DNA of 64,000 nucleotides from contig OZ024934.1 in assembly GCA_964017235.1 (NCBI GenBank), positions 85,216,706 to 85,280,705 on the forward strand. Direction: 5' to 3'. A program made the translations under genes and the position numbers. This document shows positions 29,596 to 64,000 of this stretch, one piece after another. This DNA comes from Sabellastarte sp. h YS-2021. Taxonomy: Eukaryota > Annelida > Polychaeta > Sabellida > Sabellidae. The notes beneath the pieces were generated by a model. It saw only the letters and a list, made by a program, of their open reading frames with translations, was not told where the DNA came from and did no database searches. Each line of letters starts with the position of its first letter. The first letter of the stretch is position 1.

Positions 29596-30958
29596 ATGTA
29601 TTGGAAGTGCAGGTATCGAGGGGGTGATCATATGGCACATCAGTCCAAAACCCCACTTAAACTTCATCAATCTGGCTCAGATTTTCACAGGAAACTCAGT
29701 TCATATCATACATTGATATTGTATTGGCTTGACTTACTCAGGAAACCAATTAAAAATTTCAATTTTCCGGGGTTTGGGGCCAGGCTCAGCCCCCCTCAAA
29801 TTAGGAAATATCAGTTATATCCTAATACAACCAATCTGAAGCTCTTATTTAATTTTGTATATGTTTAACAATAATTGAGGATATATTAGGCCCATTTGGA
29901 GCATTACATCTCTGAAAATAAATTATTTCACCCATATAGTGCTGTAAAAATGGTCAAAAATACATGTAAATTACACCAAACCAGTACCAAATGTTGGTCT
30001 ATAATGCTGAAATTTGGCCAGAATATAAGGTGGCACATACTAAATCTGACTGAACCGGTTTTAAAATTACATCTGATATAACAGTACCTATAGTTTGGCA
30101 ATATTGGCTTCAGCTGGCCCCAAATTCGCTTCTTTGGGCCTGCATTAAGATATACTTAACTTTGGCAAAGTAAGACAATTTTAAGGCTGAAAACCATATT
30201 GTTTGCTAGGGCTGGCGCCACTAAATGAGATTCCACAAGAATATTCCTTAAGAAATACATAACTGGTCCAAAATACATGTATTGGAAGTGCAGGTATCGA
30301 GGGGGTGATCATATGGCACATCAGTCCAAAACCCCACTTAAACTTCATCAATCTGGCTCAGATTTTCACAGGAAACTCAGTTTATATCACACATTGATAT
30401 TGTATTGGCTTGACTTACTCAGGAAACCAATTAAAAATTTCAATTTTCCGGGGTTTGGGGCCAGGCTCAGCCCCCCTCAAATTAGGAAATATCAGGTATA
30501 TCCTAATACAACCAATCTGAAGCTCTTATTGAATTTTGCATATGTTTTAACAATAATTGAGGATATATTAGGCCCATTTGGAGCATTACATCTCTGAAAA
30601 TAAATTATTTCACCCATATAGTGCTGTAAAAATGGTCAAAAATACATGTAAATTACACCAAACCAGTACCAAATGTTGGTCTATAATGCTGAAATTTGGC
30701 CAGAATATAAGGTGGCACATACTAAATCTGACTGAACCGGTTTTAAAATTACATCTGATATAACAGTACCTATAGTTTGGCAATATTGGCTTCAGCTGGC
30801 CCCAAATTCGCTTCTGTGGGCCTGCATTAAGATATACTTAACTTTGGCAAAGTAAGACAATTTTAAGGCTGAAAACCATATTGTTTGCTAGGGCTGGCGC
30901 CACTAAATGAGATTCCATAAGAATATTCCTTAAGAAATACATAACTGGTCCAAAATAC
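29596..30958 (+). repeat. Monomers U and K linking to the large duplication
   Basis: U (29596, 681 bp) lacks one T in GTTTAAC near 29863, which shifts the long frame after 90 codons, and has a unique CTTTGGGCCTGC tail near 30133. K (30277) has Leu36 and an unusual TTATTGAAT near 30528. U-K followed by L (30959) recurs as R-K-L at 37734, 38414 and 39096, including the same TTATTGAAT near 38665, so this trio was copied from or to the inside of the large unit. Confidence 0.8.
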
Positions 30959-31640
30959 ATGTATTGGAAGTGCAGGTATCGAGGGGGTGATCATATGGCA
31001 CATCAGTCCAAAACCCCACTTAAACTTCATCAATCTGGCTCAGATTTTCACAGGAAACTCAGTTCATATCACACATTGATATTGTATTGGCTTGACTTAC
31101 TCAGGAAACCAATTAAAAATTTCAATTTTCCGGGGTTTGGGGCCAGGCTCAGCCCCCCTCAAATTAGGAAATATCAGGTATATCCTAATACAACCAATCT
31201 GAAGCTCTTCTTTAATTTTGCATATGTTTTAACAATAATTGAGGATATATTAGGCCCATTTGGAGCATTACATCTCTGAAAATAAATTATTTCACCCATA
31301 TAGTGCTGTAAAAATGGTCAAAAATACATGTAAATTACACCAAACCAGTACCAAATGTTGGTCTATAATGCTGAAATTTGGCCAGAATATAAGATGGCAC
31401 ATACTAAATCTGACTGAACCGGTTTTAAAATTACATCTGATATAACAGTACCTATAGTTTGGCAATATTGGCTTCAGCTGGCCCCAAATTCGCTTTTGTG
31501 GGGCTGCATTAAGATATACTTAAATTTGGCAAAGTAAGACAATTTTAAGGCTGAAAACCATATTGTTTGCTAGAGCTGGCGCCACTAAATGAGATTCCAC
31601 AAGAATATTCCTTAAGAAATACATAACTGGTCCAAAATAC

Positions 31641-33671
31641 ATGTATTGGAAGTGCAGGTATCGAGGGGGTGATCATATGTCACATCAGTCCAAAACCCCA
31701 CTTAAACTTCATCAATCTGGCTCAGATTTTCACAGGAAACTCAGTTCATATCACACATTGATATTGTATTGGCTTGACTTACTCAGGAAACCAATTAAAA
31801 ATTTCAATTTTCCAGGGTTTGGGGCCAGGCTCAGCCCCCCTCAAATTAGGAAATATCAGGTATATCCTAATACAACCAATCTGAAGCTCTTCTTTAATTT
31901 TGCATATGTTTTAACAATAATTGAGGATATATTAGGCCCATTTGGAGCATTACATCTCTGAAAATAAATTATTTCACCCATATAGTGCTGTAAAAATGGT
32001 CAAAAATACATGTAAATTACACCAAACCAGTACCAAATGTTGGTCTATAATGCTGAAATTTGGCCAGAATATAAGGTGGCACATACTAAATCTGACTGAA
32101 CCGGTTTTAAAATTACATCTGATGTAACAGTACCTATAGTTTGGCAATATTGGCTTCAGCTGGCCCCAAATTCCCTTCTGTGGGGCTGCATTAAGATATA
32201 CTTAAATTTGGCAAAGTAAGACAATTTTAAGGCTGAAAACCATATTGTTTGCTAGAGCTGGCGCCACTAAATGAGATTCCACAAGAATATTCCTTAAGAA
32301 ATACATAACTGGTCCAAAATACATGTATTGGAAGTGCAGGTATCGAGGGGGTGATCATATGGCACATCAGTCCAAAACCCCACTTAAACTTCATCAATCT
32401 GGCTCAGATTTTCACAGGAAACTCAGTTCATATCACACATTGATATTGTATTGGCTTGACTTACTCAGGAAACCAATTAAAAATTTCAATTTTCCAGGGT
32501 TTGGGGCCAGGCTCAGCCCCCCTCAAATTAGGAAATATCAGGTATATCCTAATACAACCAATCTGAAGCTCTTCTTTAATTTTGCATATGTTTTAACAAT
32601 AATTGAGGATATATTAGGCCCATTTGGAGCATTACATCTCTGAAAATAAATTAGTTCACCCATATAGTGCTGTAAAAATGGTCAAAAATACATGTAAATT
32701 ACACCAAACCAGTACCAAATGTTGGTCTATAATGCTGAAATTTGGCCAGAATATAAGGTGGCACATACTAAATCTGACTGAACCGGTTTTAAAATTACAT
32801 CTGATATAACAGTACCTATAGTTTGGCAATATTGGCTTCAGCTGGCCCCAAATTCGCTTCTGTGGGGCTGCATTAAGATATACTTAAATTTGGCAAAGTA
32901 AGACAATTTTAAAGCTGAAAACCATATTGTTTGCTAGAGCTGGCACCACTAAATGAGATTCCACAAGAATATTCCTTAAGAAATACATAACTGGTCCAAA
33001 ATACATGTATTGGAAGTGCAGGTATCGAGGGGGTGATCATATGTCACATCAGTCCAAAAGCCCACTTAAACTTCATCAATCTGGCTCAGATTTTCACAGG
33101 AAACTCAGTTCATATCATACATTGATATTGTATTGGCTTGACTTACTCAGGAAACCAATTAAAAATTTCAATTTTCCGGGGTTTGGGGCCAGGCTCAGCC
33201 CCCCACAAATTAGGAAATATCAGTTATATCCTAATACAACCAATCTGAAGCTCTTCTTTAATGTTGCATATGTTTTAACAATAATTGAGGATATATTAGG
33301 CCCATTTGGAGCATTACATCTCTGAAAATAAATTATTTCACCCATATAGTGCTGTAAAAATGGTCAAAAATACATGTAAATTACACCAAACAAGTACCAA
33401 ATGTTGGTCTATAATGCTGAAATTTGGCCAGAATATAAGGTGGCACATACTAAATCTGACTGAACCGGTTTTAAAATTACATCTGATATATTCCAATATT
33501 GGCTTCAGCTGGCCCCAAATTCGCTTCTGTGGGGCTGCATTAAGATATACTTAAATTTGGCAAAGTAAGACAATTTTAAGGCTGAAAACCATATTGTTTG
33601 CTAGAGCTGGCGCCACTAAATGAGATTCCACAAGAATATTCCTTAAGAAATACATAACTGGTCCAAAATAC
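31641..33671 (+). repeat. Nested trimer M-N-O, 2,031 bp, first copy
   Basis: M (31641) carries CCAGGGTTT and GATGTAAC; N (32323) carries CCAGGGTTT and TTAGTTCACC; O (33005) has AAAAGCCCA near 33056, GGCACCACT in the previous tail, and the 15-bp shortening at 33491. The same trio follows directly at 33672, and corresponds to 42506-44536 in the second large unit. Confidence 0.85.
33485..33498 (+). repeat. O-monomer deletion with 3-bp filler (18 bp replaced by TTC)
   Basis: Ordinary monomers read GATATA, then 18 bp beginning ACAGTACC and ending GTTTGG, then CAATATTGG. Here GATATA is followed by TTC (33491-33493) and CAATATTGG, a net loss of 15 bp giving the 667-bp monomers. The same scar lies at 35522, 36871, 44356 and 46387, always in O monomers, so it arose once and was multiplied with the surrounding blocks. 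Confidence 0.92.
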
Positions 33672-35702
33672 ATGTATTGGAAGTGCAGGTATCGAGGGGG
33701 TGATCATATGGCACATCAGTCCAAAACCCCACTTAAACTTCATCAATCTGGCTCAGATTTTCACAGGAAACTCAGTTCATATCACACATTGATATTGTAT
33801 TGGCTTGACTTACTCAGGAAACCAATTAAAAATTTCAATTTTCCAGGGTTTGGGGCCAGGATCAGCCCCCCTCAAATTAGGAAATATCAGGTATATCCTA
33901 ATACAACCAATCTGAAGCTCTTCTTTAATTTTGCATATGTTTTAACAATAATTGAGGATATATTAGGCCCATTTGGAGCATTACATCTCTGAAAATAAAT
34001 TATTTCACCCATATAGTGCTGTAAAAATGGTCAAAAATACATGTAAATTACACCAAACCAGTACCAAATGTTGGTCTATAATGCTGAAATTTGGCCAGAA
34101 TATAAGGTGGCACATACTAAATCTGACTGAACCGGTTTTAAAATTACATCTGATGTAACAGTACCTATAGTTTGGCAATATTGGCTTCAGCTGGCCCCAA
34201 ATTCCCTTCTGTGGGGCTGCATTAAGATATACTTAAATTTGGCAAAGTAAGACAATTTTAAGGCTGAAAACCATATTGTTTGCTAGAGCTGGCGCCACTA
34301 AATGAGATTCCACAAGAATATTCCTTAAGAAATACATAACTGGTCCAAAATACATGTATTGGAAGTGCAGGTATCGAGGGGGTGATCATATGGCACATCA
34401 GTCCAAAACCCCACTTAAACTTCATCAATCTGGCTCAGATTTTCACAGGAAACTCAGTTCATATCACACATTGATATTGTATTGGCTTGACTTACTCAGG
34501 AAACCAATTAAAAATTTCAATTTTCCAGGGTTTGGGGCCAGGCTCAGCCCCCCTCAAATTAGGAAATATCAGGTATATCCTAATACAACCAATCTGAAGC
34601 TCTTCTTTAATTTTGCATATGTTTTAACAATAATTGAGGATATATTAGGCCCATTTGGAGCATTACATCTCTGAAAATAAATTAGTTCACCCATATAGTG
34701 CTGTAAAAATGGTCAAAAATACATGTAAATTACACCAAACCAGTACCAAATGTTGGTCTATAATGCTGAAATTTGGCCAGAATATAAGGTGGCACATACT
34801 AAATCTGACTGAACCGGTTTTAAAATTACATCTGATATAACAGTACCTATAGTTTGGCAATATTGGCTTCAGCTGGCCCCAAATTCGCTTCTGTGGGGCT
34901 GCATTAAGATATACTTAAATTTGGCAAAGTAAGACAATTTTAAAGCTGAAAACCATATTGTTTGCTAGAGCTGGCACCACTAAATGAGATTCCACAAGAA
35001 TATTCCTTAAGAAATACATAACTGGTCCAAAATACATGTATTGGAAGTGCAGGTATCGAGGGGGTGATCATATGTCACATCAGTCCAAAAGCCCACTTAA
35101 ACTTCATCAATCTGGCTCAGATTTTCACAGGAAACTCAGTTCATATCATACATTGATATTGTATTGGCTTGACTTACTCAGGAAACCAATTAAAAATTTC
35201 AATTTTCCGGGGTTTGGGGCCAGGCTCAGCCCCCCTCAAATTAGGAAATATCAGTTATATCCTAATACAACCAATCTGAAGCTCTTCTTTAATGTTGCAT
35301 ATGTTTTAACAATAATTGAGGATATATTAGGCCCATTTGGAGCATTACATCTCTGAAAATAAATTATTTCACCCATATAGTGCTGTAAAAATGGTCAAAA
35401 ATACATGTAAATTACACCAAACCAGTACCAAATGTTGGTCTATAATGCTGAAATTTGGCCAGAATATAAGGTGGCACATACTAAATCTGACTGAACCGGT
35501 TTTAAAATTACATCTGATATATTCCAATATTGGCTTCAGCTGGCCCCAAATTCGCTTCTGTGGGGCTGCATTAAGATATACTTAAATTTGGCAAAGTAAG
35601 ACAATTTTAAGGCTGAAAACCATATTGTTTGCTAGAGCTGGCGCCACTAAATGAGATTCCACAAGAATATTCCTTAAGAAATACATAACTGGTCGAAAAT
35701 AC
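33672..35702 (+). repeat. Nested trimer P-N-O, 2,031 bp, second copy
   Basis: P (33672) is an M-type monomer: it has CCAGGGTTT and the GATGTAAC tail near 34152, but Ala14 and the Ile64 change at 33861. N (34354) and O (35036) repeat those at 32323 and 33005. The O tail ends GGTCGAAAAT near 35692, where nearly all other monomers read GGTCCAAAAT. The counterpart in the second large unit is 44537-46567. Confidence 0.85.
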
Positions 35703-37051
35703 ATGTATTGGAAGTGCAGGTATCGAGGGGGTGATCATATGGCACATCAGTCCAAAACCCCACTTAAACTTCATCAATCTGGCTCAGATTTTCACAGGAA
35801 ACTCAGTTCATATCACACATTGATATTGTATTGGCTTGACTTACTCAGGAAACCAATTAAAAATTTCAATTTTCCAGGGTTTGGGGCCAGGCTCAGCCCC
35901 CCTCAAATTAGGAAATATCAGGTATATCCTAATACAACCAATCTGAAGCTCTTCTTTAATTTTGCATATGTTTTAACAATAATTGAGGATATATTAGGCC
36001 CATTTGGAGCATTACATCTCTGAAAATAAATTAGTTCACCCATATAGTGCTGTAAAAATGGTCAAAAATACATGTAAATTACACCAAACCAGTACCAAAT
36101 GTTGGTCTATAATGCTGAAATTTGGCCAGAATATAAGGTGGCACATACTAAATCTGACTGAACCGGTTTTAAAATTACATCTGATATAACAGTACCTATA
36201 GTTTGGCAATATTGGCTTCAGCTGGCCCCAAATTCGCTTCTGTGGGGCTGCATTAAGATATACTTAAATTTGGCAAAGTAAGACAATTTTAAAGCTGAAA
36301 ACCATATTGTTTGCTAGAGCTGGCACCACTAAATGAGATTCCACAAGAATATTCCTTAAGAAATACATAACTGGTCCAAAATACATGTATTGGAAGTGCA
36401 GGTATCGAGGGGGTGATCATATGTCACATCAGTCCAAAAGCCCACTTAAACTTCATCAATCTGGCTCAGATTTTCACAGGAAACTCAGTTCATATCATAC
36501 ATTGATATTGTATTGGCTTGACTTACTCAGGAAACCAATTAAAAATTTCAATTTTCCGGGGTTTGGGGCCAGGCTCAGCCCCCCTCAAATTAGGAAATAT
36601 CAGTTATATCCTAATACAACCAATCTGAAGCTCTTCTTTAATGTTGCATATGTTTTAACAATAATTGAGGATATATTAGGCCCATTTGGAGCATTACATC
36701 TCTGAAAATAAATTATTTCACCCATATAGTGCTGTAAAAATGGTCAAAAATACATGTAAATTACACCAAACCAGTACCAAATGTTGGTCTATAATGCTGA
36801 AATTTGGCCAGAATATAAGGTGGCACATACTAAATCTGACTGAACCGGTTTTAAAATTACATCTGATATATTCCAATATTGGCTTCAGCTGGCCCCAAAT
36901 TCGCTTCTGTGGGGCTGCATTAAGATATACTTAAATTTGGCAAAGTAAGACAATTTTAAGGCTGAAAACCATATTGTTTGCTAGAGCTGGCGCCACTAAA
37001 TGAGATTCCACAAGAATATTCCTTAAGAAATACATAACTGGTCGAAAATAC
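35703..37051 (+). repeat. Extra N-O dimer, 1,349 bp, only in large unit copy 1
   Basis: Monomers N (35703, 682 bp) and O (36385, 667 bp) repeat 34354-35702, including the GGTCGAAAAT end (near 37041). The second large unit goes from its second O (45901) directly to Q (46568), so this dimer is either a recent tandem gain here or a loss there. Confidence 0.87.
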
Positions 37052-40000
37052 ATGTATTGGAAGTGCAGGTATCGAGGGGGTGATCATATGGCACATCAGT
37101 CCAAAACCCCACTTAAATTTCATCAATCTGGCTCAGATTTTCACAGGAAACTCAGTTTATATCACACATTGATATTGTATTGGCTTGACTTACTCAGGAA
37201 ACCAATTAAAAATTTCAATTTTCCGGGGTTTGGGGCCAGGCTCAGCCCCCCTCAAATTAGGAAATATCAGGTATATCCTAATACAACCAATCTGAAGCTC
37301 TTATTTAATTTTGCATATGTTTTAACAATAATTGAGGATATATTAGGCCCATTTGGAGCATTACATCTCTGAAAATAAATTATTTCACCCATATAGTGCT
37401 GTAAAAATGGTCAAAAATACATGTAAATTACACCAAACCAGTACCAAATGTTGGTCTATAATGCTGAAATTTGGCCAGAATATAAGGTGGCACATACTAA
37501 ATCTGACTGAACCGGTTTTAAAATTACATCTGATATAACAGTACCTATAGTTTGGCAATATTGGCTTCAGCTGGTCCCAAATTCGCTTCTGTGGGCCTGC
37601 ATTAAGATATACTTAACTTTGGCAAAGTAAGACAATTTTAAGGCTGAAAACCATATTGTTTGCTAGGGCTGGCGCCACTAAATGAGATTCCACAAGAATA
37701 TTCCTTAAGAAATACATAACTGGTCCAAAATACATGTATTGGAAGTGCAGGTATCGAGGGGGTGATCATATGGCACATCAGTCCAAAACCCCACTTAAAC
37801 TTCATCAATCTGGCTCAGATTTTCACAGGAAACTCAGTTCATATCACACATTGATATTGTATTGGCTTGACTTACTCAGGAAACCAATTAAAATTTCAAT
37901 TTTCCAGGGTTTGGGGCCAGGCTCAGCCCCCCTCAAATTAGGAAATATCAGGTATATCCTAATACAACCAATCTGAAGCTCTTATTTAATTTTGTATATG
38001 TTTAACAATAATTGAGGATATATTAGGCCCATTTGGAGCATTACATCTCTGAAAATAAATTATTTCACCCATATAGTGCTGTAAAAATGGTCAAAAATAC
38101 ATGTAAATTACACCAAACCAGTACCAAATGTTGGTCTATAATGCTGAAATTTGGCCAGAATATAAGGTGGCACATACTAAATCTGACTGAACCGGTTTTA
38201 AAATTACATCTGATATAACAGTACCTATAGTTTGGCAATATTGGCTTCAGCTGGCCCCAAATTCGCTTCTGTGGGCCTGCATTAAGATATACTTAACTTT
38301 GGCAAAGTAAGACAATTTTAAGGCTGAAAACCATATTGTTTGCTAGGGCTGGCGCCACTAAATGAGATTCCACAAGAATATTCCTTAAGAAATACATAAC
38401 TGGTCCAAAATACATGTATTGGAAGTGCAGGTATCGAGGGGGTGATCATATGGCACATCAGTCCAAAACCCCACTTAAACTTCATCAATCTGGCTCAGAT
38501 TTTCACAGGAAACTCAGTTTATATCACACATTGATATTGTATTGGCTTGACTTACTCAGGAAACCAATTAAAAATTTCAATTTTCCGGGGTTTGGGGCCA
38601 GGCTCAGCCCCCCTCAAATTAGGAAATATCAGGTATATCCTAATACAACCAATCTGAAGCTCTTATTGAATTTTGCATATGTTTTAACAATAATTGAGGA
38701 TATATTAGGCCCATTTGGAGCATTACATCTCTGAAAATAAATTATTTCACCCATATAGTGCTGTAAAAATGGTCAAAAATACATGTAAATTACACCAAAC
38801 CAGTACCAAATGTTGGTCTATAATGCTGAAATTTGGCCAGAATATAAGGTGGCACATACTAAATCTGACTGAACCGGTTTTAAAATTACATCTGATATAA
38901 CAGTACCTATAGTTTGGCAATATTGGCTTCAGCTGGCCCCAAATTCGCTTCTGTGGGCCTGCATTAAGATATACTTAACTTTGGCAAAGTAAGACAATTT
39001 TAAGGCTGAAAACCATATTGTTTGCTAGGGCTGGCGCCACTAAATGAGATTCCATAAGAATATTCCTTAAGAAATACATAACTGGTCCAAAATACATGTA
39101 TTGGAAGTGCAGGTATCGAGGGGGTGATCATATGGCACATCAGTCCAAAACCCCACTTAAACTTCATCAATCTGGCTCAGATTTTCACAGGAAACTCAGT
39201 TCATATCACACATTGATATTGTATTGGCTTGACTTACTCAGGAAACCAATTAAAAATTTCAATTTTCCGGGGTTTGGGGCCAGGCTCAGCCCCCCTCAAA
39301 TTAGGAAATATCAGGTATATCCTAATACAACCAATCTGAAGCTCTTCTTTAATTTTGCATATGTTTTAACAATAATTGAGGATATATTAGGCCCATTTGG
39401 AGCATTACATCTCTGAAAATAAATTATTTCACCCATATAGTGCTGTAAAAATGGTCAAAAATACATGTAAATTACACCAAACCAGTACCAAATGTTGGTC
39501 TATAATGCTGAAATTTGGCCAGAATATAAGGTGGCACATACTAAATCTGACTGAACCGGTTTTAAAATTACATCTGATATAACAGTACCTATAGTTTGGC
39601 AATATTGGCTTCAGCTGGCCCCAAATTCGCTTTTGTGGGGCTGCATTAAGATATACTTAAATTTGGCAAAGTAAGACAATTTTAAGGCTGAAAACCATAT
39701 TGTTTGCTAGAGCTGGCGCCACTAAATGAGATTCCACAAGAATATTCCTTAAGAAATACATAACTGGTCCAAAATACATGTATTGGAAGTGCAGGTATCG
39801 AGGGGGTGATCATATGTCACATCAGTCCAAAACCCCACTTAAACTTCATCAATCTGGCTCAGATTTTCACAGGAAACTCAGTTCATATCATACATTGATA
39901 TTGTATTGGCTTGACTTACTCAGGAAACCAATTAAAAATTTCAATTTTCCGGGGTTTGGGGCCAGGCTCAGCCCCCCTCAAATTAGGAAATATCAGTTAT

Positions 40001-40459
40001 ATCCTAATACAACCAATCTGAAGCTCTTCTTTAATGTTGCATATGTTTTAACAATAATTGAGGATATATTAGGCCCATTTGGAGCATTACATCTCTGAAA
40101 ATAAATTATTTCACCCATATAGTGCTGTAAAAATGGTCAAAAATACATGTAAATTACACCAAACCAGTACCAAATGTTGGTCTATAATGCTGAAATTTGG
40201 CCAGAATATAAGGTGGCACATACTAAATCTGACTGAACCGGTTTTAAAATTACATCTGATATAACAGTACCTATAGTTTGGCAATATTGGCTTCAGCTGG
40301 CCCCTAATTCGCTTCTGTGGGGCTGCATTAAGATATACTTAAATTTGGCAAAGTAAGACAATTTTAAGGCTGAAAACCATATTGTTTGCTAGAGCTGGCG
40401 CCACTAAATGAGATTCCACAAGAATATTCCTTAAGAAATACATAACTGGTCCAAAATAC

Positions 40460-41141
40460 ATGTATTGGAAGTGCAGGTATCGAGGGGGTGATCATATGGC
40501 ACATCAGTCCAAAACCCCACTTAAACTTCATCAATCTGGCTCAGATTTTCACAGGAAACTCAGTTCATATCACACATTGATATTGTATTGGCTTGACTTA
40601 CTCAGGAAACCAATTAAAAATTTCAATTTTCCGGGGTTTGGGGCCAGGCTCAGCCCCCCTCAAATTAGGAAATATCAGGTATATCCTAATACAACCAATC
40701 TGAAGCTCTTATTTAATTTTGCATATGTTTTAACAATAATTGAGGATATATTAGGCCCATTTGGAGCATTACATCTCTGAAAATAAATTATTTCACCCAT
40801 ATAGTGCTGTAAAAATGGTCAAAAATACATGTAAATTACACCAAACCAGTACCAAATGTTGGTCTATAATGCTGAAATTTGGCCAGAATATAAGGTGGCA
40901 CATACTAAATCTGACTGAACCGGTTTTAAAATTACATCTGATATAACAGTACCTATAGTTTGGCAATATTGGCTTCAGCTGGCCCCAAATTCGCTTCTGT
41001 GGGCCTGCATTAAGATATACTTAACTTTGGCAAAGTAAGACAATTTTAAGGCTAAAAACCATATTGTTTGCTAGGGCTGGCGCCACTAAATGAGATTCCA
41101 TAAGAATATTCCTTAAGAAATACATAACTGGTCCAAAATAC
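40460..41141 (+). repeat. Chimeric U/V monomer, one-monomer contraction
   Basis: The start of this monomer matches U (Ser36, CAGTTCATAT at about 40561), whereas from about 40720 on it matches V: GCATATGTTTTAAC without the U frameshift, then GGGCCTGC, CTTAACTTT, the rare GGCTAAAAACC near 41050 and CCATAAG. In the second large unit the same marks are split over 49976 (U) and 50657 (V, with GGCTAAAAACC near 51247). A crossover between about 40567 and 40721 that removed one 681-bp monomer fits all of these. Confidence 0.82.
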
Positions 41142-41686
41142 ATGTATTGGAAGTGCAGGTATCGAGGGGGTGATCATATGGCACATCAGTCCAAAACCCC
41201 ACTTAAACTTCATCAATCTGGCTCAGATTTTCTCAGGAAACTCAGTTCATATCACACATTGATATTGTATTGGCTTGACTTACTCAGGAAACCAATTAAA
41301 AATTTCAATTTTCCGGGGTTTGGGGCCAGGCTCAGCCCCCCTCAAATTAGGAAATATCAGGTATATCCTAATACAACCAATCTGAAGCTCTTCTTTAATT
41401 TTGCATATGTTTTAACAATAATTGAGGATATATTAGGCCCATTTGGAGCATTACATCTCTGAAAATAAATTATTTCACCCATATAGTGCTGTAAAAATGG
41501 TCAAAAATACATGTAAATTACACCAAACCAGTACCAAATGTTGGTCTATAATGCTGAAATTTGGCCAGAATATAAGGTGGCACATACTAAATCTGACTGA
41601 ACCGGTTTTAAAATTACATCTGATATAACAGTACCTATAGTTTGGCAATATTGGCTTCAGCTGGCCCCAAATTCGCTTTTGTGGGG

Positions 41687-41706
41687 CTGCATTAAGATAT
41701 ACTTAA
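41687..41706 (+). other. Joint of the 10.9-kb tandem duplication
   Basis: Two linked sites normally travel together: GGGCCTGC with CTTAACTTT, or GGGGCTGC with CTTAAATTT. In the tail of the monomer at 41142 the first site is G at 41686 (with CGCTTTTG, as in the equivalent monomer at 51339), but the second is C at 41707, followed by CCATAAG as in the monomer tail at 30821-30958. The two sources lie exactly one 10,865-bp unit apart, so the exchange that created the duplication falls between these two sites. Confidence 0.8.
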
Positions 41707-41823
41707 CTTTGGCAAAGTAAGACAATTTTAAGGCTGAAAACCATATTGTTTGCTAGGGCTGGCGCCACTAAATGAGATTCCATAAGAATATTCCTTAAGA
41801 AATACATAACTGGTCCAAAATAC

Positions 41824-44800
41824 ATGTATTGGAAGTGCAGGTATCGAGGGGGTGATCATATGGCACATCAGTCCAAAACCCCACTTAAACTTCATCAATC
41901 TGGCTCAGATTTTCACAGGAAACTCAGTTCATATCACACATTGATATTGTATTGGCTTGACTTACTCAGGAAACCAATTAAAAATTTCAATTTTCCGGGG
42001 TTTGGGGCCAGGCTCAGCCCCCCTCAAATTAGGAAATATCAGGTATATCCTAATACAACCAATCTGAAGCTCTTCTTTAATTTTGCATATGTTTTAACAA
42101 TAATTGAGGATATATTAGGCCCATTTGGAGCATTACATCTCTGAAAATAAATTATTTCACCCATATAGTGCTGTAAAAATGGTCAAAAATACATGTAAAT
42201 TACACCAAACCAGTACCAAATGTTGGTCTATAATGCTGAAATTTGGCCAGAATATAAGATGGCACATACTAAATCTGACTGAACCGGTTTTAAAATTACA
42301 TCTGATATAACAGTACCTATAGTTTGGCAATATTGGCTTCAGCTGGCCCCAAATTCGCTTTTGTGGGGCTGCATTAAGATATACTTAAATTTGGCAAAGT
42401 AAGACAATTTTAAGGCTGAAAACCATATTGTTTGCTAGAGCTGGCGCCACTAAATGAGATTCCACAAGAATATTCCTTAAGAAATACATAACTGGTCCAA
42501 AATACATGTATTGGAAGTGCAGGTATCGAGGGGGTGATCATATGTCACATCAGTCCAAAACCCCACTTAAACTTCATCAATCTGGCTCAGATTTTCACAG
42601 GAAACTCAGTTCATATCACACATTGATATTGTATTGGCTTGACTTACTCAGGAAACCAATTAAAAATTTCAATTTTCCAGGGTTTGGGGCCAGGCTCAGC
42701 CCCCCTCAAATTAGGAAATATCAGGTATATCCTAATACAACCAATCTGAAGCTCTTCTTTAATTTTGCATATGTTTTAACAATAATTGAGGATATATTAG
42801 GCCCATTTGGAGCATTACATCTCTGAAAATAAATTATTTCACCCATATAGTGCTGTAAAAATGGTCAAAAATACATGTAAATTACACCAAACCAGTACCA
42901 AATGTTGGTCTATAATGCTGAAATTTGGCCAGAATATAAGGTGGCACATACTAAATCTGACTGAACCGGTTTTAAAATTACATCTGATGTAACAGTACCT
43001 ATAGTTTGGCAATATTGGCTTCAGCTGGCCCCAAATTCCCTTCTGTGGGGCTGCATTAAGATATACTTAAATTTGGCAAAGTAAGACAATTTTAAGGCTG
43101 AAAACCATATTGTTTGCTAGAGCTGGCGCCACTAAATGAGATTCCACAAGAATATTCCTTAAGAAATACATAACTGGTCCAAAATACATGTATTGGAAGT
43201 GCAGGTATCGAGGGGGTGATCATATGGCACATCAGTCCAAAACCCCACTTAAACTTCATCAATCTGGCTCAGATTTTCACAGGAAACTCAGTTCATATCA
43301 CACATTGATATTGTATTGGCTTGACTTACTCAGGAAACCAATTAAAAATTTCAATTTTCTAGGGTTTGGGGCCAGGCTCAGCCCCCCTCAAATTAGGAAA
43401 TATCAGGTATATCCTAATACAACCAATCTGAAGCGCTTCTTTAATTTTGCATATGTTTTAACAATAATTGAGGATATATTAGGCCCATTTGGAGCATTAC
43501 ATCTCTGAAAATAAATTAGTTCACCCATATAGTGCTGTAAAAATGGTCAAAAATACATGTAAATTACACCAAACCAGTACCAAATGTTGGTCTATAATGC
43601 TGAAATTTGGCCAGAATATAAGGTGGCACATACTAAATCTGACTGAACCGGTTTTAAAATTACATCTGATATAACAGTACCTATAGTTTGGCAATATTGG
43701 CTTCAGCTGGCCCCAAATTCGCTTCTGTGGGGCTGCATTAAGATATACTTAAATTTGGCAAAGTAAGACAATTTTAAAGCTGAAAACCATATTGTTTGCT
43801 AGAGCTGGCACCACTAAATGAGATTCCACAAGAATATTCCTTAAGAAATACATAACTGGTCCAAAATACATGTATTGGAAGTGCAGGTATCGAGGGGGTG
43901 ATCATATGTCACATCAGTCGAAAAGCCCACTTAAACTTCATCAATCTGGCTCAGATTTTCACAGGAAACTCAGTTCATATCATACATTGATATTGTATTG
44001 GCTTGACTTACTCAGGAAACCAATTAAAAATTTCAATTTTCCGGGGTTTGGGGCCAGGCTCAGCCCCCCTCAAATTAGGAAATATCAGTTATATCCTAAT
44101 ACAACCAATCTGAAGCTCTTCTTTAATGTTGCATATGTTTTAACAATAATTGAGGATATATTAGGCCCATTTGGAGCATTACATCTCTGAAAATAAATTA
44201 TTTCACCCATATAGTGCTGTAAAAATGGTCAAAAATACATGTAAATTACACCAAACAAGTACCAAATGTTGGTCTATAATGCTGAAATTTGGCCAGAATA
44301 TAAGGTGGCACATACTAAATCTGACTGAACCGGTTTTAAAATTACATCTGATATATTCCAATATTGGCTTCAGCTGGCCCCAAATTCGCTTCTGTGGGGC
44401 TGCATTAAGATATACTTAAATTTGGCAAAGTAAGACAATTTTAAGGCTGAAAACCATATTGTTTGCTAGAGCTGGCGCCACTAAATGAGATTCCACAAGA
44501 ATATTCCTTAAGAAATACATAACTGGTCCAAAATACATGTATTGGAAGTGCAGGTATCGAGGGGGTGATCATATGGCACATCAGTCCAAAACCCCACTTA
44601 AACTTCATCAATCTGGCTCAGATTTTCACAGGAAACTCAGTTCATATCACACATTGATATTGTATTGGCTTGACTTACTCAGGAAACCAATTAAAAATTT
44701 CAATTTTCCAGGGTTTGGGGCCAGGATCAGCCCCCCTCAAATTAGGAAATATCAGGTATATCCTAATACAACCAATCTGAAGCTCTTCTTTAATTTTGCA

Positions 44801-47800
44801 TATGTTTTAACAATAATTGAGGATATATTAGGCCCATTTGGAGCATTACATCTCTGAAAATAAATTATTTCACCCATATAGTGCTGTAAAAATGGTCAAA
44901 AATACATGTAAATTACACCAAACCAGTACCAAATGTTGGTCTATAATGCTGAAATTTGGCCAGAATATAAGGTGGCACATACTAAATCTGACTGAACCGG
45001 TTTTAAAATTACATCTGATGTAACAGTACCTATAGTTTGGCAATATTGGCTTCAGCTGGCCCCAAATTCCCTTCTGTGGGGCTGCATTAAGATATACTTA
45101 AATTTGGCAAAGTAAGACAATTTTAAGGCTGAAAACCATATTGTTTGCTAGAGCTGGCGCCACTAAATGAGATTCCACAAGAATATTCCTTAAGAAATAC
45201 ATAACTGGTCCAAAATACATGTATTGGAAGTGCAGGTATCGAGGGGGTGATCATATGGCACATCAGTCCAAAACCCCACTTAAACTTCATCAATCTGGCT
45301 CAGATTTTCACAGGAAACTCAGTTCATATCACACATTGATATTGTATTGGCTTGACTTACTCAGGAAACCAATTAAAAATTTCAATTTTCCAGGGTTTGG
45401 GGCCAGGCTCAGCCCCCCTCAAATTAGGAAATATCAGGTATATCCTAATACAACCAATCTGAAGCTCTTCTTTAATTTTGCATATGTTTTAACAATAATT
45501 GAGGATATATTAGGCCCATTTGGAGCATTACATCTCTGAAAATAAATTAGTTCACCCATATAGTGCTGTAAAAATGGTCAAAAATACATGTAAATTACAC
45601 CAAACCAGTACCAAATGTTGGTCTATAATGCTGAAATTTGGCCAGAATATAAGGTGGCACATACTAAATCTGACTGAACCGGTTTTAAAATTACATCTGA
45701 TATAACAGTACCTATAGTTTGGCAATATTGGCTTCAGCTGGCCCCAAATTCGCTTCTGTGGGGCTGCATTAAGATATACTTAAATTTGGCAAAGTAAGAC
45801 AATTTTAAAGCTGAAAACCATATTGTTTGCTAGAGCTGGCACCACTAAATGAGATTCCACAAGAATATTCCTTAAGAAATACATAACTGGTCCAAAATAC
45901 ATGTATTGGAAGTGCAGGTATCGAGGGGGTGATCATATGTCACATCAGTCCAAAAGCCCACTTAAACTTCATCAATCTGGCTCAGATTTTCACAGGAAAC
46001 TCAGTTCATATCATACATTGATATTGTATTGGCTTGACTTACTCAGGAAACCAATTAAAAATTTCAATTTTCCGGGGTTTGGGGCCAGGCTCAGCCCCCC
46101 TCAAATTAGGAAATATCAGTTATATCCTAATACAACCAATCTGAAGCTCTTCTTTAATGTTGCATATGTTTTAACAATAATTGAGGATATATTAGGCCCA
46201 TTTGGAGCATTACATCTCTGAAAATAAATTATTTCACCCATATAGTGCTGTAAAAATGGTCAAAAATACATGTAAATTACACCAAACCAGTACCAAATGT
46301 TGGTCTATAATGCTGAAATTTGGCCAGAATATAAGGTGGCACATACTAAATCTGACTGAACCGGTTTTAAAATTACATCTGATATATTCCAATATTGGCT
46401 TCAGCTGGCCCCAAATTCGCTTCTGTGGGGCTGCATTAAGATATACTTAAATTTGGCAAAGTAAGACAATTTTAAGGCTGAAAACCATATTGTTTGCTAG
46501 AGCTGGCGCCACTAAATGAGATTCCACAAGAATATTCCTTAAGAAATACATAACTGGTCGAAAATACATGTATTGGAAGTGCAGGTATCGAGGGGGTGAT
46601 CATATGGCACATCAGTCCAAAACCCCACTTAAATTTCATCAATCTGGCTCAGATTTTCACAGGAAACTCAGTTTATATCACACATTGATATTGTATTGGC
46701 TTGACTTACTCAGGAAACCAATTAAAAATTTCAATTTTCCGGGGTTTGGGGCCAGGCTCAGCCCCCCTCAAATTAGGAAATATCAGGTATATCCTAATAC
46801 AACCAATCTGAAGCTCTTATTTAATTTTGCATATGTTTTAACAATAATTGAGGATATATTAGGCCCATTTGGAGCATTACATCTCTGAAAATAAATTATT
46901 TCACCCATATAGTGCTGTAAAAATGGTCAAAAATACATGTAAATTACACCAAACCAGTACCAAATGTTGGTCTATAATGCTGAAATTTGGCCAGAATATA
47001 AGGTGGCACATACTAAATCTGACTGAACCGGTTTTAAAATTACATCTGATATAACAGTACCTATAGTTTGGCAATATTGGCTTCAGCTGGTCCCAAATTC
47101 GCTTCTGTGGGCCTGCATTAAGATATACTTAACTTTGGCAAAGTAAGACAATTTTAAGGCTGAAAACCATATTGTTTGCTAGGGCTGGCGCCACTAAATG
47201 AGATTCCACAAGAATATTCCTTAAGAAATACATAACTGGTCCAAAATACATGTATTGGAAGTGCAGGTATCGAGGGGGTGATCATATGGCACATCAGTCC
47301 AAAACCCCACTTAAACTTCATCAATCTGGCTCAGATTTTCACAGGAAACTCAGTTCATATCACACATTGATATTGTATTGGCTTGACTTACTCAGGAAAC
47401 CAATTAAAATTTCAATTTTCCAGGGTTTGGGGCCAGGCTCAGCCCCCCTCAAATTAGGAAATATCAGGTATATCCTAATACAACCAATCTGAAGCTCTTA
47501 TTTAATTTTGTATATGTTTAACAATAATTGAGGATATATTAGGCCCATTTGGAGCATTACATCTCTGAAAATAAATTATTTCACCCATATAGTGCTGTAA
47601 AAATGGTCAAAAATACATGTAAATTACACCAAACCAGTACCAAATGTTGGTCTATAATGCTGAAATTTGGCCAGAATATAAGGTGGCACATACTAAATCT
47701 GACTGAACCGGTTTTAAAATTACATCTGATATAACAGTACCTATAGTTTGGCAATATTGGCTTCAGCTGGCCCCAAATTCGCTTCTGTGGGCCTGCATTA

Positions 47801-50800
47801 AGATATACTTAACTTTGGCAAAGTAAGACAATTTTAAGGCTGAAAACCATATTGTTTGCTAGGGCTGGCGCCACTAAATGAGATTCCACAAGAATATTCC
47901 TTAAGAAATACATAACTGGTCCAAAATACATGTATTGGAAGTGCAGGTATCGAGGGGGTGATCATATGGCACATCAGTCCAAAACCCCACTTAAACTTCA
48001 TCAATCTGGCTCAGATTTTCACAGGAAACTCAGTTTATATCACACATTGATATTGTATTGGCTTGACTTACTCAGGAAACCAATTAAAAATTTCAATTTT
48101 CCGGGGTTTGGGGCCAGGCTCAGCCCCCCTCAAATTAGGAAATATCAGGTATATCCTAATACAACCAATCTGAAGCTCTTATTTAATTTTGCATATGTTT
48201 TAACAATAATTGAGGATATATTAGGCCCATTTGGAGCATTACATCTCTGAAAATAAATTATTTCACCCATATAGTGCTGTAAAAATGGTCAAAAATACAT
48301 GTAAATTACACCAAACCAGTACCAAATGTTGGTCTATAATGCTGAAATTTGGCCAGAATATAAGGTGGCACATACTAAATCTGACTGAACCGGTTTTAAA
48401 ATTACATCTGATATAACAGTACCTATAGTTTGGCAATATTGGCTTCAGCTGGCCCCAAATTCGCTTCTGTGGGCCTGCATTAAGATATACTTAACTTTGG
48501 CAAAGTAAGACAATTTTAAGGCTGAAAACCATATTGTTTGCTAGGGCTGGCGCCACTAAATGAGATTCCATAAGAATATTCCTTAAGAAATACATAACTG
48601 GTCCAAAATACATGTATTGGAAGTGCAGGTATCGAGGGGGTGATCATATGGCACATCAGTCCAAAACCCCACTTAAACTTCATCAATCTGGCTCAGATTT
48701 TCACAGGAAACTCAGTTCATATCACACATTGATATTGTATTGGCTTGACTTACTCAGGAAACCAATTAAAAATTTCAATTTTCCGGGGTTTGGGGCCAGG
48801 CTCAGCCCCCCTCAAATTAGGAAATATCAGGTATATCCTAATACAACCAATCTGAAGCTCTTCTTTAATTTTGCATATGTTTTAACAATAATTGAGGATA
48901 TATTAGGCCCATTTGGAGCATTACATCTCTGAAAATAAATTATTTCACCCATATAGTGCTGTAAAAATGGTCAAAAATACATGTAAATTACACCAAACCA
49001 GTACCAAATGTTGGTCTATAATGCTGAAATTTGGCCAGAATATAAGGTGGCACATACTAAATCTGACTGAACCGGTTTTAAAATTACATCTGATATAACA
49101 GTACCTATAGTTTGGCAATATTGGCTTCAGCTGGCCCCAAATTCGCTTTTGTGGGGCTGCATTAAGATATACTTAAATTTGGCAAAGTAAGACAATTTTA
49201 AGGCTGAAAACCATATTGTTTGCTAGAGCTGGCGCCACTAAATGAGATTCCACAAGAATATTCCTTAAGAAATACATAACTGGTCCAAAATACATGTATT
49301 GGAAGTGCAGGTATCGAGGGGGTGATCATATGTCACATCAGTCCAAAACCCCACTTAAACTTCATCAATCTGGCTCAGATTTTCACAGGAAACTCAGTTC
49401 ATATCATACATTGATATTGTATTGGCTTGACTTACTCAGGAAACCAATTAAAAATTTCAATTTTCCGGGGTTTGGGGCCAGGCTCAGCCCCCCTCAAATT
49501 AGGAAATATCAGTTATATCCTAATACAACCAATCTGAAGCTCTTCTTTAATGTTGCATATGTTTTAACAATAATTGAGGATATATTAGGCCCATTTGGAG
49601 CATTACATCTCTGAAAATAAATTATTTCACCCATATAGTGCTGTAAAAATGGTCAAAAATACATGTAAATTACACCAAACCAGTACCAAATGTTGGTCTA
49701 TAATGCTGAAATTTGGCCAGAATATAAGGTGGCACATACTAAATCTGACTGAACCGGTTTTAAAATTACATCTGATATAACAGTACCTATAGTTTGGCAA
49801 TATTGGCTTCAGCTGGCCCCTAATTCGCTTCTGTGGGGCTGCATTAAGATATACTTAAATTTGGCAAAGTAAGACAATTTTAAGGCTGAAAACCATATTG
49901 TTTGCTAGAGCTGGCGCCACTAAATGAGATTCCACAAGAATATTCCTTAAGAAATACATAACTGGTCCAAAATACATGTATTGGAAGTGCAGGTATCGAG
50001 GGGGTGATCATATGGCACATCAGTCCAAAACCCCACTTAAACTTCATCAATCTGGCTCAGATTTTCACAGGAAACTCAGTTCATATCACACATTGATATT
50101 GTATTGGCTTGACTTACTCAGGAAACCAATTAAAAATTTCAATTTTCCGGGGTTTGGGGCCAGGCTCAGCCCCCCTCAAATTAGGAAATATCAGGTATAT
50201 CCTAATACAACCAATCTGAAGCTCTTATTTAATTTTGTATATGTTTAACAATAATTGAGGATATATTAGGCCCATTTGGAGCATTACATCTCTGAAAATA
50301 AATTATTTCACCCATATAGTGCTGTAAAAATGGTCAAAAATACATGTAAATTACACCAAACCAGTACCAAATGTTGGTCTATAATGCTGAAATTTGGCCA
50401 GAATATAAGGTGGCACATACTAAATCTGACTGAACCGGTTTTAAAATTACATCTGATATAACAGTACCTATAGTTTGGCAATATTGGCTTCAGCTGGCCC
50501 CAAATTCGCTTCTGTGGGCCTGCATTAAGATATACTTAACTTTGGCAAAGTAAGACAATTTTAAGGCTGAAAACCATATTGTTTGCTAGGGCTGGCGCCA
50601 CTAAATGAGATTCCACAAGAATATTCCTTAAGAAATACATAACTGGTCCAAAATACATGTATTGGAAGTGCAGGTATCGAGGGGGTGATCATATGGCACA
50701 TCAGTCCAAAACCCCACTTAAACTTCATCAATCTGGCTCAGATTTTCACAGGAAACTCAGTTTATATCACACATTGATATTGTATTGGCTTGACTTACTC

Positions 50801-52020
50801 AGGAAACCAATTAAAAATTTCAATTTTCCGGGGTTTGGGGCCAGGCTCAGCCCCCCTCAAATTAGGAAATATCAGGTATATCCTAATACAACCAATCTGA
50901 AGCTCTTATTTAATTTTGCATATGTTTTAACAATAATTGAGGATATATTAGGCCCATTTGGAGCATTACATCTCTGAAAATAAATTATTTCACCCATATA
51001 GTGCTGTAAAAATGGTCAAAAATACATGTAAATTACACCAAACCAGTACCAAATGTTGGTCTATAATGCTGAAATTTGGCCAGAATATAAGGTGGCACAT
51101 ACTAAATCTGACTGAACCGGTTTTAAAATTACATCTGATATAACAGTACCTATAGTTTGGCAATATTGGCTTCAGCTGGCCCCAAATTCGCTTCTGTGGG
51201 CCTGCATTAAGATATACTTAACTTTGGCAAAGTAAGACAATTTTAAGGCTAAAAACCATATTGTTTGCTAGGGCTGGCGCCACTAAATGAGATTCCATAA
51301 GAATATTCCTTAAGAAATACATAACTGGTCCAAAATACATGTATTGGAAGTGCAGGTATCGAGGGGGTGATCATATGGCACATCAGTCCAAAACCCCACT
51401 TAAACTTCATCAATCTGGCTCAGATTTTCACAGGAAACTCAGTTCATATCACACATTGATATTGTATTGGCTTGACTTACTCAGGAAACCAATTAAAAAT
51501 TTCAATTTTCCGGGGTTTGGGGCCAGGCTCAGCCCCCCTCAAATTAGGAAATATCAGGTATATCCTAATACAACCAATCTGAAGCTCTTCTTTAATTTTG
51601 CATATGTTTTAACAATAATTGAGGATATATTAGGCCCATTTGGAGCATTACATCTCTGAAAATAAATTATTTCACCCATATAGTGCTGTAAAAATGGTCA
51701 AAAATACATGTAAATTACACCAAACCAGTACCAAATGTTGGTCTATAATGCTGAAATTTGGCCAGAATATAAGGTGGCACATACTAAATCTGACTGAACC
51801 GGTTTTAAAATTACATCTGATATAACAGTACCTATAGTTTGGCAATATTGGCTTCAGCTGGCCCCAAATTCGCTTTTGTGGGGCTGCATTAAGATATACT
51901 TAAATTTGGCAAAGTAAGACAATTTTAAGGCTGAAAACCATATTGTTTGCTAGAGCTGGCGCCACTAAATGAGATTCCACAAGAATATTCCTTAAGAAAT
52001 ACATAACTGGTCCAAAATAC
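41824..52020 (+). repeat. Large HOR unit copy 2, 15 monomers, 10,197 bp
   Basis: Monomer starts: 41824, 42506, 43188, 43870, 44537, 45219, 45901, 46568, 47250, 47930, 48612, 49294, 49976, 50657 and 51339. Its length follows from copy 1 by removing one N-O dimer (1,349 bp) and adding one 681-bp monomer: where copy 1 has a single chimeric monomer (40460), this copy has separate U (49976) and V (50657). Private marks are TTTCTAGGG near 43367, AAGCGCTTC near 43431 and CAGTCGAAAAG near 43915. K of copy 1 is represented at 47930 by a V-like form with TTATTTAAT. Confidence 0.9.
49294..52020 (+). repeat. Four-monomer unit T-U-V-W, 2,727 bp
   Basis: T (49294) has Ser14, CATATCATAC, Leu74, Val87 and CCCCTAATT near 49816; U (49976, 681 bp) has the GTTTAAC frameshift near 50243; V (50657) has Leu36 and the GGGCCTGC tail; W (51339) has the CGCTTTTG tail. 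It ends the second large unit and is the model for the shorter T-U-V units to its right. Confidence 0.82.
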
Positions 52021-54065
52021 ATGTATTGGAAGTGCAGGTATCGAGGGGGTGATCATATGTCACATCAGTCCAAAACCCCACTTAAACTTCATCAATCTGG
52101 CTCAGATTTTCACAGGAAACTCAGTTCATATCATACATTGATATTGTATTGGCTTGACTTACTCAGGAAACCAATTAAAAATTTCAATTTTCCGGGGTTT
52201 GGGGCCAGGCTCAGCCCCCCTCAAATTAGGAAATATCAGTTATATCCTAATACAACCAATCTGAAGCTCTTCTTTAATGTTGCATATGTTTTAACAATAA
52301 TTGAGGATATATTAGGCCCATTTGGAGCATTACATCTCTGAAAATAAATTATTTCACCCATATAGTGCTGTAAAAATGGTCAAAAATACATGTAAATTAC
52401 ACCAAACCAGTACCAAATGTTGGTCTATAATGCTGAAATTTGGCCAGAATATAAGGTGGCACATACTAAATCTGACTGAACCGGTTTTAAAATTACATCT
52501 GATATAACAGTACCTATAGTTTGGCAATATTGGCTTCAGCTGGCCCCTAATTCGCTTCTGTGGGGCTGCATTAAGATATACTTAAATTTGGCAAAGTAAG
52601 ACAATTTTAAGGCTGAAAACGATATTGTTTGCTAGAGCTGGCGCCACTAAATGAGATTCCACAAGAATATTCCTTAAGAAATACATAACTGGTCCAAAAT
52701 ACATGTATTGGAAGTGCAGGTATCGAGGGGGTGATCATATGGCACATCAGTCCAAAACCCCACTTAAACTTCATCAATCTGGCTCAGATTTTCACAGGAA
52801 ACTCAGTTCATATCACACATTGATATTGTATTGGCTTGACTTACTCAGGAAACCAATTAAAAATTTCAATTTTCCGGGGTTTGGGGCCAGGCTCAGCCCC
52901 CCTCAAATTAGGAAATATCAGGTATATCCTAATACAACCAATCTGAAGCTCTTATTTAATTTTGTATATGTTTAACAATAATTGAGGATATATTAGGCCC
53001 ATTTGGAGCATTACATCTCTGAAAATAAATTATTTCACCCATATAGTGCTGTAAAAATGGTCAAAAATACATGTAAATTACACCAAACCAGTACCAAATG
53101 TTGGTCTATAATGCTGAAATTTGGCCAGAATATAAGGTGGCACATACTAAATCTGACTGAACCGGTTTTAAAATTACATCTGATATAACAGTACCTATAG
53201 TTTGGCAATATTGGCTTCAGCTGGCCCCAAATTCGCTTCTGTGGGCCTGCATTAAGATATACTTAACTTTGGCAAAGTAAGACAATTTTAAGGCTGAAAA
53301 CCATATTGTTTGCTAGGGCTGGCGCCACTAAATGAGATTCCACAAGAATATTCCTTAAGAAATACATAACTGGTCCAAAATACATGTATTGGAAGTGCAG
53401 GTATCGAGGGGGTGATCATATGGCACATCAGTCCAAAACCCCACTTAAACTTCATCAATCTGGCTCAGATTTTCACAGGAAACTCAGTTTATATCACACA
53501 TTGATATTGTATTGGCTTGACTTACTCAGGAAACCAATTAAAAATTTCAATTTTCCGGGGTTTGGGGCCAGGCTCAGCCCCCCTCAAATTAGGAAATATC
53601 AGGTATATCCTAATACAACCAATCTGAAGCTCTTATTTAATTTTGCATATGTTTTAACAATAATTGAGGATATATTAGGCCCATTTGGAGCATTACATCT
53701 CTGAAAATAAATTATTTCACCCATATAGTGCTGTAAAAATGGTCAAAAATACATGTAAATTACACCAAACCAGTACCAAATGTTGGTCTATAATGCTGAA
53801 ATTTGGCCAGAATATAAGGTGGCACATACTAAATCTGACTGAACCGGTTTTAAAATTACATCTGATATAACAGTACCTATAGTTTGGCAATATTGGCTTC
53901 AGCTGGCCCCAAATTCGCTTCTGTGGGGCTGCATTAAGATATACTTAAATTTGGCAAAGTAAGACAATTTTAAGGCTGAAAACCATATTGTTTGCTAGAG
54001 CTGGCGCCACTAAATGAGATTCCACAAGAATATTCCTTAAGAAATACATAACTGGTCCAAAATAC
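52021..54065 (+). repeat. Three-monomer unit T-U-V, 2,045 bp, copy 1
   Basis: T (52021), U (52703, 681 bp) and V (53384). It repeats 49294-51338 at an offset of 2,727 bp. The T tail has CCCCTAATT near 52545 and a private G in AAAACGATATT near 52617. The V tail differs from 50657: it has GGGGCTGC, CTTAAATTT, TAGAGC and CCACAAG, so it has taken an X-like tail and W is skipped. Confidence 0.83.
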
Positions 54066-63609: not shown

Positions 63610-64000
63610 ATGTATTGGAAGTGCAGGTATCGAGGGGGTGATCATATGGCACATCAGTCCAAAACCCCACTTAAACTTCATCAATCTGGCTCAGATTTTC
63701 ACAGGAAACTCAGTTCATATCACACATTGATATTGTATTGGCTTGACTTACTCAGGAAACCAATTAAAAATTTCAATTTTCCGGGGTTTGGGGCCAGGCT
63801 CAGCCCCCCTCAAATTAGGAAATATCAGGTATATCCTAATACAACCAATCTGAAGCTCTTATTTAATTTTGCATATGTTTAACAATAATTGAGGATATAT
63901 TAGGCCCATTTGGAGCATTACATCTCTGAAAATAAATTATTTCACCCATATAGTGCTGTAAAAATGGTCAAAAATACATGTAAATTACACCAAACCAGTA
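63610..64000 (+). repeat. Start of a third 2,727-bp HOR, cut by the right window edge
   Basis: The monomer at 63610 is U-like, with the one-base loss in GTTTAAC near 63877 but GCATATG as in the monomer at 56111. It sits where the 2,727-bp period predicts the next U. The array continues past the window end. Confidence 0.85.

Follow-up and report, generated by a model that had tools for sequence, protein, structure and literature searches.

Within the 64,000-base stretch of DNA analyzed here (the window), a block of satellite monomers is followed directly by a second copy of itself in the same orientation, forming a tandem duplication. Across three registers combined, 9,510 of 9,516 bases are identical between the adjacent copies (6 mismatches, 0.063%). 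As the initial annotation had claimed of this duplication, its joint can be confined to 20 bp, with the exchange lying between positions 41686 and 41707. The duplication is observed as two adjacent copies, a joint interval, a hybrid monomer, a monomer register that is kept throughout, copy-number differences between the copies, and six base differences. The best reading of these features, to which we give odds of roughly two in three, is an unequal homologous exchange or break-induced replication followed by two smaller events.

Unless it is an error of assembly, the duplication adds one more instance to a process already well known, an ordinary trace of satellite-array growth, and it opens no new question. 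It offers a clean worked example of such growth, in which the edges, the joint, and the likely later edits are legible from one sequence. If reads support the duplication, the joint would also provide a marker for tracking one array haplotype through a population.

The satellite array and its higher-order units

A BLAST search of the monomer against the window reveals that 682-bp monomers fill its entire length head-to-tail, 93 of them full and 2 partial.

1 to 64000, plus strand: satellite array of 682-bp monomers with no other sequence (gapless single-strand monomer tiling)

In the BLAST tiling, full monomers measure 667 to 682 bp and share 95.9 to 100% identity with the monomer at 41142. 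The 93 full monomers comprise 49 distinct sequences, and their alignment contains 77 variable columns (gap columns counted), 14 of which deviate in a single monomer; the mean pairwise difference over all pairs is 9.25 per monomer. Multimers are more alike than their constituent monomers, as seen at a lag of 4,090 bp and in the variant table, which identifies the array as a higher-order-repeat satellite. The left-hand higher-order unit is a 6-mer of 4,090 bp that is 99.76% alike over 14,965 bp; it spans 1996-21050 in between four and five copies. The right-hand unit is a 4-mer of 2,727 bp with the monomer types P-Q-R-S (47423-64000), and similarity at this lag is 99.67% over 47423-52271 and 99.71% over 56379-61273. 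Between the left 6-mer and the right 4-mer sits a block without periodicity, in which five of the monomers are 667 bp long. Two monomers within the 4-mer region, at 53384 and 55429, are identical to each other and are likely P/Q deletion hybrids. The joint interval of the one at 53384 (M79) is 6 bp wide if its right parent is Q and widens to columns 251-544 with a consensus-type right parent.

Higher-order structure of this kind is widespread, with clear cases reported by PMC4053949 in 76 of 171 animal and plant species with Sanger data. The present satellite likewise builds multimers within multimers from variant monomers, among them truncated ones; unlike the satellites of that report, its monomer was matched to no named family. 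A description of the 682-bp satellite was not found in the open-licence literature.

Primate alpha satellite has a monomer of about 171 bp. No period below 682 bp was detected here up to 500 bp, and the 682-bp consensus contains no internal repeat apart from an 11-bp inverted match, which sets the array outside alpha satellite. The CENP-B box motif has nine fixed bases, and on both strands of the consensus monomer the best site departs from the motif at 2 of the 9. This weak CENP-B-box-like site, with 7 of 9 fixed bases, occupies columns 530-544 of the consensus (e.g., 41672-41686).

Nine of the 10 monomers overlapping 38000-44000 carry a 106-amino-acid open frame in columns 0-320; the tenth, M56, has single-base deletions. 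Since single-base deletions at columns 156 and 268 disrupt this frame elsewhere in the array as well, we do not regard it as a gene. Its version in M61 matched no Pfam family at E values up to 1. In 41000-44000, none of the Rfam families scored at or above its gathering threshold. Searches of plasmids and of phages with the monomer returned no match, nor did exact searches of viral contigs with a 43-base pattern or of bacterial and archaeal genomes with a 32-base pattern; as these are all collections of non-eukaryote sequence, the result says little about which eukaryote is involved. G+C content is 36-37% throughout the window. CpG stands at 0.21 of expectation, while TpG and CpA in the consensus stand at 1.21 and 1.30; the low CpG suggests a methylated eukaryote genome.

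Correspondence between the two copies

The limits of the two copies were drawn from the variant comparison, the copying model described below, and the three-register alignment.

30822 to 41686, plus strand: copy 1, 10,865 bp, 16 monomers (M46-M61)
41687 to 51883, plus strand: copy 2, 10,197 bp, 15 monomers (M62-M76), with its right end anywhere in 51883-51903
33005 to 33671, then at 35036, 36385, 43870, and 45901, plus strand: 667-bp monomers, marked by a 15-bp deletion

The segment limits of the three-register comparison were taken from the monomer variant table and the copying model. In the first register, 30822-35702 corresponds to 41687-46567 at a lag of 10,865 (4 mismatches in 4,881 bp); in the second, 37052-40566 corresponds to 46568-50082 at a lag of 9,516 (1 mismatch in 3,515 bp); and in the third, 40567-41686 corresponds to 50764-51883 at a lag of 10,197 (1 mismatch in 1,120 bp). 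The lag shifts beyond about 35702 because copy 1 is longer by a 1,349-bp dimer at one place and copy 2 by a monomer at another.

These registers revise the extent given in the initial annotation, which had described a 10,865-bp unit with a second copy reaching 52020. The period holds for 30822-35702 but is replaced beyond it by lags of 9,516 and then 10,197, and 10,865 bp is the present length of copy 1. Copy 2 ends at about 51883-51903, position 52020 being simply the end of M76. Two pairs of rare variants had been cited for the 10,865-bp spacing: the pair at 33861/44726 is exact (column 189 of M50 and M66), and the pair placed at 31391/42256 has the correct spacing but lies at 31394/42259 (column 435 of M46 and M62). 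The copy-against-copy alignment that had been proposed does give 6 mismatches in 9,516 bp, but the dimer and the monomer break any single register. An alignment of the whole copies with one large gap (49 mismatches in 10,195 bp, 99.52%) was rejected, as it pairs unlike monomer types after 35703.

All 14 block-restricted variants with at least two carriers are found in both copies and in the same order, and these variants are absent from all full monomers outside both blocks. In this count the 15-bp deletion is a single variant together with the two changes at its edges. Some of the 14 are linked through sharing one monomer type, so the number of independent marks is smaller. The 667-bp monomers, which combine the 15-bp deletion with two nearby substitutions, number five and occur window-wide only in the two copies.

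For 7-monomer blocks paired at a lag of at least 7 monomers (3,239 pairs), the median difference is 69 events, as against 4 events (lag 16, from M46) and 1 event (lag 14, from M53) for the duplicated block. Blocks of the same size in the left 6-mer array differ by 4-7 events at lags 12 and 18. High similarity alone is thus not special in the window, because the left 6-mer array is equally homogeneous; the variants restricted to the two copies are what set the duplicated block apart. As a weak control, the longest matching run was 7 in the observed order and 5 in 300 shuffles of monomer order. Long higher-order units do exist elsewhere, with a 59-mer and a 58-mer named for orangutan, and the block might by analogy be an ordinary 16-mer unit of which the window holds two copies of many. 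We find this hardly credible: no third copy lies next to either side, and the block-restricted variants do not extend to any full monomer beyond the two blocks.

The joint monomer and the exchange interval

The two copies meet within a single monomer, M61, whose two parts resemble the monomers at the outer edges of the block.

41142 to 41823, plus strand: hybrid joint monomer M61, with a Q-type head (as 51339-52020) and a P-type tail (as 30277-30958) (column comparison)
41687 to 41706, plus strand: exchange interval, 20 bp, the same in both parents (column comparison and copying model)
30277 to 30958, plus strand: left-edge monomer M45, P type, whose identity to M61 starts after column 544 (30821)
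51339 to 52020, plus strand: right-edge monomer M76, Q type, whose identity to M61 stops before column 565 (51904)

The initial annotation had recognized that the monomer at 41142 mixes marks of two sources, and the column comparison bears this out: it is M76-like to column 544 and M45-like from column 545. Over columns 0-544, M61 differs from M76 at one private base, and from column 545 onward it does not differ from M45 at all; the crossed comparisons give 6 differences (head versus M45) and 3 differences (tail versus M76). The break falls between 41686 and 41707 because the match to M45 starts after column 544 and the match to M76 ends before column 565. These left- and right-edge constraints are compatible with each other, as in a mosaic with a single switch. 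The exchange interval reads CTGCATTAAGATATACTTAA. M61 alone among 94 monomers pairs T537 of CGCTTTTG with C565 of CTTAACTTT, as opposed to the ordinary linkage of GGGGCTGC with CTTAAATTT; T537 is present in 11 of the 94 and C565 in 19, the final partial monomer stopping short of both columns. M61 is 682 bp long and in phase, so the homologous monomer register continues unbroken across the joint. Its head is matched equally well by M43, M58, M72, and M76 and its tail by M36, M42, M57, M71, and M45. Since the Q head and the P tail are each a common type, the parents are set by context and not by the joint monomer alone.

The copying model, in which any other monomer was usable as a template, was run with no coordinates supplied and with one penalty setting. 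It placed switches in the region at 30821/30822, 35695/35696, 40566/40567, 41686/41687, 45211/45212, and 50149/50150. The switch at 41686/41687 is resolved to 20 bp, and that at 30821/30822 is the left end of an interval of 572 bp, because M57-M58 fit M45-M46 equally well to 31393 (M46 column 435). Restricted to left templates, the model marked no switch at 30822. The 20 switch intervals across the window range from 6 to 1,437 bp, three of them (6, 10, and 10 bp) narrower than 20 bp. The precision of the joint, which had been called unusual, is therefore not so in this window, and for human alpha satellite PMC3694981 credits Warburton et al. 1993 with breakpoints of about 20 bp.

The joint also has to be weighed as a product of assembly, in which two haplotypes or two places in the array were joined tandemly via near-identical monomers. 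We consider this unlikely. An unbroken register is no safeguard against misassembly, since an assembler's false joins occur where sequence is shared. The copies differ at just 0.063% of bases and their differences are clustered, both of which favor an artifact, and six differences in 9.5 kb also fits two haplotypes falsely placed in tandem. On the other side, the dimer, the monomer, and the six base differences make a duplicated single read path unlikely; the structural differences count against such a path and not against two haplotypes placed in tandem. The marks at columns 537, 544, and 565 fall within 29 bp, a span that accurate long reads should resolve.

A first duplication could instead have been larger, with a Q-to-P exchange deleting at least three monomers and removing the original joint, in which case the 20-bp interval would belong to that later deletion and not to the first duplication. 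A three-monomer deletion in a P-Q-R-S array yields a Q head and a P tail, at 53384 the same two types probably form a hybrid left by deletion of one monomer, and M60 marks a further loss in copy 1. This account is nevertheless quite improbable, as it requires one additional event and finds no further close flank match at the block lags (the M45 head has 6 differences, and M44 and M60 differ), while M62 and M77 differ at 8 bases.

We regard as very doubtful the idea that exchange favors a segment around columns 537-577, beside the CENP-B-box-like site and including the inverted repeat TTAAGATATACTTAA. Just as doubtful is its corollary, that one hotspot gave rise both to the 20-bp joint in M61 and to the 6-bp joint at 53384. 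Seventeen joints from the 20 switches entered the test, with M45 merged with M61, M66 merged with M52, and M11 dropped as exceeding a monomer. The best 40-bp window, at 538, had a P of 0.0135-0.016 (0.002 for a window fixed after the fact). Dropping M90 gave 0.01, and dropping M37 gave 0.042 with the peak shifted to 222; dropping pairs gave 0.10 (M37 and M90) and 0.032 with the peak at 222 (M37 and M85), and dropping all three gave 0.28. Inspection of the variant table indicated that M37 and M85 are not clear hybrids. We thus rejected the hotspot as a finding, as P rises to as much as 0.28 without M37, M85, and M90, the peak moves when M37 is dropped alone or with M85, and the 6-bp joint of M79 is parent-dependent. 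The exchange interval contains an inverted repeat with 5-bp arms, one of 15 such repeats in the consensus versus 8.7 (s.d. 3.7) in shuffles; we discount it as evidence of mechanism.

Differences between the copies and their probable history

Two structural differences separate the copies.

35703 to 37051, plus strand: additional dimer of 1,349 bp in copy 1 (M53-M54), with the same sequence as 34354-35702 and 45219-46567
40460 to 41141, plus strand: M60, a hybrid with an S head and a P tail, counterpart of two copy-2 monomers (49976-51338)
50083 to 50763, plus strand: 681 bp of copy 2 without a copy-1 counterpart, placement flexible within the joint interval (three-register comparison)

The 1,349-bp dimer occurs once in copy 2, and the direction of this change cannot be polarized because all three dimers are identical. 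The loss of one monomer likely left M60 as its scar, and the joint within M60 falls between columns 106 and 262. The arrangement R-S-P'-Q of copy 2 is likely older than R-(S/P')-Q of copy 1, because the usual rightward order is P-Q-R-S.

Of the six base differences, the one at 38668 is common to M45 and the other five are each private to one monomer: A200 of M49 (33205) and T91 of M61 (41233) in copy 1, T172 (43360) and G247 (43435) in M64, and G50 (43920) in M65. Four of the six fall within 711 bp (copy-1 positions 32495, 32570, 33055, and 33205), a clustering with P of about 0.02 under uniform placement in a test chosen post hoc. Simple point mutation accounts for the cluster poorly; conversion, clustered mutation, or a local error in the sequence could each have produced it.

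From these features we infer recombination rather than assembly as the origin of the joint, along with an order of events and a pathway. Homologous recombination is indicated by the way near-identical monomers are joined in register. Out-of-register copies of one satellite array, on sister chromatids, on homologues, or through a re-invading strand, would have recombined at a 20-bp stretch identical between a Q-type and a P-type monomer, duplicating some 15 or 17 monomers in tandem and leaving a Q/P hybrid where the copies meet. Then, or in the same episode, copy 1 would have lost one monomer by a second in-register exchange that left the S/P hybrid M60, and the 1,349-bp two-monomer unit would have been either gained by copy 1 or lost by copy 2. 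The original exchange most likely spanned either 15 monomers (10,197 bp), if copy 1 gained the dimer later, or 17 (11,546 bp), if copy 2 lost it later; the present-day 16 monomers (10,865 bp) would be the net result of later events. The same joint results from unequal exchange between sisters or homologues, from conversion-like synthesis, or from break-induced replication, and these pathways are indistinguishable from the sequence here. The duplicated block is without evident function and is a by-product of concerted evolution.

Comparable changes have been reported in human alpha satellite, where PMC12240836 lists 18 de novo structural changes in 150 centromere transmissions, 13 of the 18 in higher-order arrays and 680 to 12,228 bp in size. 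Those changes and the present one are whole repeat multiples, and the human size range covers the block; the human changes were seen directly from parent to child, whereas ours is read from one assembled sequence with a 682-bp monomer. The same source gives a human centromeric rate of 1.01e-7 per base per generation, at which 0.063% divergence would correspond to about 3,000 generations, a figure that is only illustrative, as the rate in the host may differ. PMC11034957 describes change in human arrays within about 20 cell divisions of an ALT-positive line, with RAD52 and PIF1 required, and suggests that break-induced replication can act. In the human D8Z2 hybrid monomer (PMC8099727), 87 bp of A are joined to 84 bp of E; there, as in M61, the joint is intramonomer and the parents are read from diagnostic bases, but the alpha-satellite hybrids are recurrent unit variants, whereas the joint here closes a block duplication in a different satellite. 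The array itself contains other copy-number products, namely the 6-mer of 4,090 bp, the 4-mer of 2,727 bp, and the likely P/Q deletion hybrid at 53384.
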